DNA of 64,000 nt from Profundicola chukchiensis. Its GTDB lineage: Bacteria > Bacteroidota > Bacteroidia > Flavobacteriales > Weeksellaceae. The notes under the pieces were generated by a model. That model saw only the letters and a list, made by a program, of their open reading frames with translations. It was not told where the DNA came from and did not search any database. Below, piece by piece: positions 20,400-21,953 of this stretch. The stretch's first letter is position 1, and each line of letters starts with the position of its first letter. The position numbers were made by a program, and so were the translations under genes. Where the stretch lies: positions 434,001 through 498,000 of the forward strand of contig NZ_JANAIE010000001.1 of the NCBI RefSeq assembly GCF_029664245.1, given 5' to 3'.

Positions 20400-21953
20400 A
20401 TGAATCAGCAAATATGGGATCTTTATAAAACCTCAGAAAGAGGAAAAACCTACATCAATCTATTCAGCTTTGATCCAGAAATTGAAAGGCTAGAAGATAA
20501 AACGGAAAGCATCTTTCATCACTTTCAAGAATATATAGGCTATGAAGAGCACCAAGATATTTTTATTGATATTTGTGAACTAGTTATTCTAAATATTGAA
20601 TATCAAGAAATTTTCTTAAAAGAAAAAGAAACCAAATCTGAGTATTTTAAAAGATTAATTGAAAATCTAGAGATTGCAGATTTTAAACTAAGCCCAGACG
20701 GAAATTCATTAAATAAGGATGATAAAATATTCATTAATAAACAAGATTATAGATCCTTAAATGCAATTGTACCACACATTTCTCTCATTCTATATTTTTA
20801 CGGTGCTGTACCATTTTATCCAATTTTATTTAAGGCACAGTTCGATATCTTAATTAAAATTTTCGATGTGTTAGGGATTCCTTTTCCTGAACTTCCTTCT
20901 AAAGTAGATAAAAAAGAAAGAATCCTCTATTACAATGATCTTAATGAAAAGATAGAAAAATTTGCCAATCAATACAATCTTTCACCTGCAGAAACATGCG
21001 CGTGCTTATATGATTTTTCTTTTATGCTTTTAAATGAAGTGGAAAGTTCAAATGAACTTCCGGAGCCGATGAATGTCTGGTTGACTGGAGGAAGCAAATA
21101 CGATTATTCTGATTTTCTGAAAAACCCAACTGAGGGTAAAAGTTTAATATGGGCAGGAAATGAAAACACAAAACGCGGAGATATAATTGTTGTTTACGTA
21201 ACTTCACCTTATAGCGCTATTCAATCTATATGGAGAGCAGATACGGATGGAAGTATCACTCCTTTTAATTTTTACCAAAGTCGTATTAGAATTACTAAAG
21301 GTATTACAATACCACATATCAAGAATAGAGAACTGAAAGAAGACTCTTATTTTTCTAACGTCTCAATTGTAAAAAGAAATTTCCAAGGCGTTAATGGTGT
21401 AAAACTATCTACAACTGATTATCAGCAACTTCTCAGAATCATCAAAAGTAAAGGTTTTGATACAAATATATTACCTCAACTATACTCACCTGATTTTGAG
21501 AAACATAACAATATTTATTTAGAAAAGGATGTTGAAGAAAAGCTTTTAATTCCCTTGTTAGAAAAGCTAGGCTATACTAGTGCAGATTGGTCACGCCAAC
21601 TTTCACAAAAAGCTGGTAGAAACGTTAAAATTATTCCTGATTTTGTTTTCTTAGCAAAAGGCGAACATCTCTTCCAAAATGCACCAATGATAATCGAAGC
21701 AAAATTGGATTTTACTTCTAATATTGAAAAAACTAAGTCATATAACCAAGCTTTATCCTATGCACGTATGATGAAATCTACAGTATTAGGTATTTGCGAT
21801 AAGCATCGCTTGCTAATATATAAGGAGAAAAACGGTTATTTCGATAGATTCAATCCTAGTTTTGAAAACTATTGGCAGAATTTAAATGATGCAGAGGTAT
21901 TTAGCGAACTAAAGCAATTAATTGGAAAGGACTTCATTAATAAAAATAATTAG
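20400..21953 (+). CDS. Predicted PD-(D/E)XK nuclease with EVE/PUA-like region; candidate modification-dependent restriction enzyme
   Basis: 517 residues in three parts. Residues 1-215 are helical without a known motif. Residues 222-345 run from NVWLTGGSKYDYSDF through RGDIIVVYVTSPYSAIQSIW to FYQSRIRITK, an arrangement that resembles EVE/PUA-like modified-base readers (WL start, GDxxxxYVTSP core). Residues 374-510 are an HsdR N-terminal-like nuclease: EEKLLIPLLEKLGY, then PDFVF (Asp414) and IIEAKLDF (Glu433, Lys435), giving a complete D...ExK site. No methylase, helicase or specificity subunit is adjacent, so it would act alone. A defence role is inference; the nuclease fold is well supported. 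Confidence 0.65.
   Translation: MNQQIWDLYKTSERGKTYINLFSFDPEIERLEDKTESIFHHFQEYIGYEEHQDIFIDICELVILNIEYQEIFLKEKETKSEYFKRLIENLEIADFKLSPDGNSLNKDDKIFINKQDYRSLNAIVPHISLILYFYGAVPFYPILFKAQFDILIKIFDVLGIPFPELPSKVDKKERILYYNDLNEKIEKFANQYNLSPAETCACLYDFSFMLLNEVESSNELPEPMNVWLTGGSKYDYSDFLKNPTEGKSLIWAGNENTKRGDIIVVYVTSPYSAIQSIWRADTDGSITPFNFYQSRIRITKGITIPHIKNRELKEDSYFSNVSIVKRNFQGVNGVKLSTTDYQQLLRIIKSKGFDTNILPQLYSPDFEKHNNIYLEKDVEEKLLIPLLEKLGYTSADWSRQLSQKAGRNVKIIPDFVFLAKGEHLFQNAPMIIEAKLDFTSNIEKTKSYNQALSYARMMKSTVLGICDKHRLLIYKEKNGYFDRFNPSFENYWQNLNDAEVFSELKQLIGKDFINKNN

Follow-up and report, generated by a model that had tools for sequence, protein, structure and literature searches.

The gene at positions 20400..21953 on the forward strand of the 64,000-nucleotide stretch of DNA analyzed here (the window) encodes a protein of 517 residues, in which an N-terminal helical module is followed by an EVE domain and an HsdR-like PD-(D/E)XK nuclease. 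We consider it probable that this protein is an anti-phage restriction endonuclease that depends on DNA modification, resembles type IV enzymes and acts as a single protein. The computed evidence, which covers the anatomy of the protein, its folds, its conservation, its distribution and its genomic linkage, supports the anatomy well and the role of a predicted restriction enzyme moderately. Like a type IV enzyme, the protein combines a reader with a nuclease and has no partner methylase. We infer that its EVE domain (residues 222–354) would flip a modified base from double-stranded DNA into an aromatic pocket, and that capture of this base would dock and activate the C-terminal nuclease domain. 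Cutting would then rely on metal ions coordinated by Asp414 and Glu433, and on Lys435. Unmodified host DNA would be spared in this process, so that no methylase would be needed.

The open reading frame starts with ATG and is evidently a real gene, as full-length homologues in other phyla and classes align with its product along its entire length, beginning at the first residues. Its GC content is 30.8%, compared with 33.8% for the whole window. A model of the full protein, built from a 21-row alignment, reached a pLDDT of 87.6 and a pTM of 0.78. The original prediction, made from the letters of the window, had proposed both the three-part anatomy, which is now borne out by models, fold matches and conservation, and a stand-alone arrangement with no adjacent methylase. 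The latter is equally correct: no methylase gene adjoins the reading frame, and its neighbors, judged by eye, are a ChrA-like transporter, two small proteins and an aminotransferase-like protein. The aminotransferase-like gene, which lies downstream, is not conserved within the genus. Screening of the 45 other reading frames in the window, including a search with PADLOC, yielded no credible defense gene; where PADLOC did match, each model, among them desaturase, SspA, DndA and mads, hit a single reading frame. A defense island in the window is therefore rejected.

The nuclease domain comprises residues 362–517 (21483..21950, forward strand). In structural comparisons with VIA, this part of the model (residues ~362–517) matched an HsdR fragment (3h1t) with a Z-score of 10.3 and the nuclease DrdV (7lo5) with 9.7. 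Likewise, the C-terminal columns of the family profile matched one HsdR-like protein in a set of 395 class genomes. Pfam HSDR_N matches were weak and restricted to 14 of 22 members, and the window protein scored 16.7 bits against PF04313 (HSDR_N), for which the curated cut-off is 25.1. As this score lies below the cut-off and the matches are weak, we refer to the nuclease as HsdR-like and do not place it in PF04313. Its D...ExK site had been assigned to Asp414, Glu433 and Lys435, and these positions proved right: the codon of the catalytic Asp414 at 21639..21641 and those of Glu433–Ala434–Lys435 (ExK) at 21696..21704, both on the forward strand, frame a site whose three named residues are invariant in 31/31 homologues. 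The same invariance is seen for Gln450, Ser453 and Tyr454 in the HsdR-like QxxSY motif (Gln450 to Tyr454; 21747..21761, forward strand), and for Glu375, Glu379 and Gln400. The domain hence displays the fold of the HsdR-like PD-(D/E)XK nucleases as well as the complete D...ExK plus QxxxY motif, and from this full, invariant signature we expect an active nuclease. Affiliation with Shedu was also considered; no DUF4263/Shedu match appeared in Pfam or PADLOC (E-values up to 10) or in the family scans.

The EVE domain (residues 222–354; 21063..21461, forward strand), the predicted modified-base reader, had been anticipated as an EVE/PUA-like layout at residues 222–345, and both homology to known EVE proteins and fold agree with this assignment. 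In the 395 class genomes, the middle columns of the family profile matched an EVE-McrB protein (L030, E = 1.4e-6) and two standalone EVE proteins (L031, E = 1.7e-4; L033, E = 6.9e-4), all E-values being per genome; the last of these proteins in turn matches EVE structures in the PDB by sequence, with a best E-value of 4.8e-36. A fold search for EVE/PUA and HsdR structures, which had been suggested as a check, matched both. With Foldseek, the full model returned five PDB matches at E < 0.001, namely 2gbs (E = 2.7e-4), 1zce, 2ar1, 2hd9 and 1wmm, the first three of which show sequence matches to a standalone EVE protein as well. VIA aligned residues ~224–363 to 1zce (Z = 12.8), 2eve (Z = 11.8), the restriction enzyme VcaM4I (6yex, Z = 11.2) and THYN1 with 5mC DNA (5j3e, Z = 10.8). 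The Pfam EVE model matched only 1 of 22 members, weakly (0.042), and the window protein does not reach its curated cut-off. Within the domain, W251, G260, D261, P270, P288, G330, G333 and Y341 are invariant. A candidate pocket would comprise Trp251, which is invariant across the 31 homologues, Tyr292, which is found in 29/31, and the conserved Phe328–Gln329 loop; their correspondence to W26/Y82 in 2eve and to W82/Y130/Q128 in VcaM4I is drawn by motif, not from superposed coordinates.

The N-terminal module (residues 1–218; 20400..21053, forward strand) is mostly helical. Modeled alone with AlphaFold2 (pLDDT 93.2, pTM 0.89), it consists of helices and a single β-hairpin at residues 92–112. In an alignment of 28 rows, Trp6, Ser128, Pro141, Pro163, Pro166 and Tyr178 are invariant, and the conserved positions, which are Trp, Tyr, Pro and Ser residues, lie dispersed and form no evident catalytic set. 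The claim that these ~215 helical residues match nothing known held up in searches by fold and by sequence. Foldseek found no match in the PDB at E < 1, and Pfam found no credible one. The best VIA match, to the archaeal 8-oxoguanine glycosylase Ogg of M. jannaschii (3knt; 145 residues at 4.6 Å), has a Z-score of 5.0, which lies below the level that is meaningful for the tool, and all others scored 2.1 or less. A sequence profile of the module found no Ogg in the PDB, and its comparison with two Nth-like proteins, which had been picked up by an Ogg-HhH model, gave a probability of 0.1%; an HhH-GPD DNA glycosylase is thus unsupported, the profile comparison referring to Nth-like proteins and not to archaeal Ogg. 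Across 395 phylum genomes, the module occurred in the family itself and in one weak match within a broken frame. We conclude that it may represent a new regulatory or recognition fold, which probably gates or dimerizes the nuclease or provides a second DNA contact.

So large and conserved a module could also be taken for a sensor of a phage protein or of damage, which would direct the nuclease to degrade host DNA in an abortive infection, with the EVE domain merely aiding DNA binding. Such an architecture has a parallel in Shedu-type REases fused to N-terminal sensors, which occur with BREX (PMC12839542), and the stops and frameshifts in some homologues are what costly genes may show. However, Trp251 and other residues in the pocket region of the EVE domain are conserved like the catalytic site, which suggests that base reading is essential, and the fusion of reader and nuclease would confer specificity without a separate trigger. 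We therefore regard an abortive-infection effector as unlikely.

Still less likely, in our estimate, is a protein that acts on RNA, whose EVE domain would read modified or ordinary RNA and whose nuclease would take part in processing RNA or act as an RNase in abortive infection. The PUA superfamily, including EVE, is generally tied to translation and RNA binding (PMC7641849), and YTH RNA readers do match the EVE part, with VIA Z-scores of 7–8.6. Yet they are outscored by the EVE structures, including VcaM4I and THYN1 with 5mC DNA, and the nuclease fold is closest to the DNA-cutting HsdR and DrdV. Moreover, its rarity and its presence in prophages and in a BREX cluster make the gene look unlike one for a housekeeping RNA enzyme.

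If the protein is a DNA modification-dependent nuclease, as we favor, the question arises which modification it might read. A reader of generic 5mC, one of the ligands that had earlier been suggested for testing, would lead us to expect that carriers tend to lack cytosine-5 methylases. The C5-methylase family PF00145 is absent from the genome of the window, but carriers are not depleted of it: it occurs in 15/21 carrier genomes compared with 95/198 phylum genomes (two-sided Fisher P = 0.06), a rough control in that the carrier set includes a few non-Bacteroidota and MAGs. As this trend runs opposite to the expectation, a generic 5mC reader is disfavored and plain 5mC unlikely to be the ligand; it is likelier that the family reads a rarer, bulky or phage-specific modification or requires a narrow sequence context.

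The protein matches PHROG 37753, a family annotated as of unknown function, almost from end to end (E = 2.3e-97); all 31 aligned members match this family too. A scan of 84,980 species genomes for the conserved motifs returned at least 22 loci, mostly in Bacteroidota but also in Geobacter, Chloroflexota and Lachnospiraceae. A motif scan also identified 16 IMG/VR contigs with a homologue, and a protein search located homologues on two Deinococcus plasmids. Full-length homologues are thus rare and patchily distributed over several phyla. Only 3 of 395 phylum genomes have a match, one of them over the nuclease part alone, and among 395 class genomes the full protein is found in its own genome only, which leads us to reject a housekeeping gene. 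The original prediction had named as its refutation a middle region that folds otherwise, together with homologues that are ubiquitous housekeeping genes; we find instead an EVE fold and a rare gene. Several copies are interrupted: two have broken frames (L018, L022), and a third is split (L027) and contains sequence that looks transposase-derived. In the phylogenetic tree, whose root is uncertain, the viral copies are united in a single supported clade, and many chromosomal and plasmid lineages lie outside it. The window protein groups with proteins from a Sphingobacteriales MAG, a Prevotellaceae MAG and G269; this grouping points to horizontal spread of the family.

Whether homologues cluster in defense islands had been suggested as a check, and for the most part they do not: some copies are found in defense or prophage contexts, within BREX, near a type IIG enzyme or beside repressor genes, but most are either solitary or prophage-borne. 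Judged by eye, most chromosomal homologues, including that of the window, stand alone between housekeeping genes. One exception is the homologue of Deinococcus sp. QL22, which resides within a BREX cluster (brxL, pglZ, N-6 methylase, brxC, brxB), on the opposite strand and between the pglZ and GTPase genes. It is followed by two genes for GTPases whose LeoA-like matches are weak (L005:10508-12257), and the cluster also encodes a DarT-family protein. The family is nevertheless no part of the BREX core, as only the QL22 homologue lies within BREX and no BREX genes were seen in the other homologue neighborhoods read by eye. On its plasmid, the D. proteolyticus homologue is a few genes away from a type IIG restriction-modification enzyme; the same plasmid carries a gene annotated as CRISPR-associated Csx16 (L004:3285-3569). 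Other neighbors include a Bro-N protein (L023) and, by eye, RhuM-like and Fic-like genes. In two Prevotellaceae loci, the nuclease gene is flanked by genes for small proteins of 157–167 residues (L009:11766-12269, L010:9407-9880), downstream in one and upstream in the other, which look alike by eye and have no Pfam match.

A regular context is that of the prophages. In 12 of the 16 viral contigs (L035–L038, L040–L047), the nuclease gene starts 2–38 nt after the gene of an S24-type repressor; with near-identical contigs counted once, nine arrangements remain. All ten of the upstream proteins that were scanned match Peptidase_S24, most of them also an HTH domain, and those of L038 and L046 are 100% identical to scanned ones. 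In L039, the gene for the S24 protein is instead found downstream of the nuclease. An integrase-type gene follows closely on the other strand in all three contigs scanned for it (L028, L035, L047). The repressors are mostly just 20–36% identical in pairwise comparisons, with the exception of L043 versus L045–L047 (75%) and of copies of the same arrangement (99–100%), whereas the prophage nucleases share 48–84% identity. This contrast between divergent repressors and similar nucleases indicates that the repressor was exchanged repeatedly while the nuclease was kept as cargo. In one contig, the next gene after the nuclease encodes an HSDR_N-type protein (L040:9571-10650; PF04313, E = 5.7e-12), which may be a further restriction gene carried as cargo.

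One would expect a gene beside the repressor to be expressed during lysogeny and to protect the lysogen, and a position next to the repressor, towards the integrase end, is typical of such lysogenic cargo and not of lytic genes. This position, as well as the many chromosomal and plasmid lineages outside the single viral clade, speaks against a function for the phage itself that chromosomes captured later, be it the lytic cutting of host or competitor DNA or a regulatory nuclease of the lysogeny switch, which the tight repressor linkage might otherwise suggest and which we consider very unlikely. By analogy with known lysogenic cargo, we infer that the prophage nuclease is probably expressed in lysogeny and would protect the lysogen by excluding competing phages. 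Tentatively, this can be extended to a more specific proposal for PHROG 37753 as a whole, which is possible although we would not call it probable: a new N-terminal fold would gate an EVE-PD(D/E)XK nuclease directed at a modified phage base that is not 5mC, and temperate phages would keep this nuclease as the fixed companion of interchangeable repressors, such that their lysogens destroy modified competitors.

With these assignments, a family of unknown function gains a prediction that can be tested on specific catalytic residues and on candidate residues of the pocket. Such enzymes also serve as tools to map modified bases. Should our reading of the repressor linkage be true, a temperate phage would retain a modified-DNA restriction enzyme next to its immunity gene even as one repressor is swapped for another. 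Another contig of the genome of the window carries the gene for a second EVE protein (L049; G000:C65 ~157381-157776, reverse strand), which has at least 854 residues and in which the EVE domain (Pfam E = 7.5e-14) is followed, by eye, by a McrB-like AAA/GTPase part. A single bacterium may accordingly run two EVE readers with different specificity.

Among known systems, the closest are the EVE-PD(D/E)XK fusions that have been predicted to be type IV enzymes (Bell, Wolf and Koonin, 2020; PMC7641849), which likewise unite reader and nuclease in one protein and have no partner methylase. Here, by contrast, a helical N-terminal module of ~215 residues precedes these domains, and a prophage clade is linked to repressors; we found no description of either in the open-licence literature searched. 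While the architecture as such is therefore already known as a prediction, the features that may be new are the N-terminal module and the link to repressors. VcaM4I, whose EVE domain flips 5mC and 5hmC bases (PMC7897488), is similarly a single protein with an EVE fold fused to a nuclease and no methylase, but its nuclease is of the HNH type, its EVE domain is located at the N-terminus, and it has no N-terminal helical module. EVE-McrB proteins, of which one was a direct match of our family profile (L030), also employ an EVE reader for a nuclease system; they rely on a GTPase motor and a separate McrC, whereas the nuclease described here is part of the same chain and has no NTPase. The N-terminal nuclease of HsdR (3h1t) and that of DrdV (7lo5) share the PD-(D/E)XK fold and the motif with QxxxY, but unlike type I HsdR and DrdV, the present family has no helicase motor, methylase or target recognition subunit. 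Lastly, a 2026 survey reports that no auxiliary effectors are more prevalent in BREX and related systems than PD-(D/E)XK nucleases (PMC12839542), and BrxU, a single-protein type IV enzyme of the GmrSD family that complements BREX (PMC12409352), shares an island with BREX, as does the QL22 homologue. Its architecture of ParB-like and HNH domains is unrelated, however, and the family described here usually resides outside BREX.
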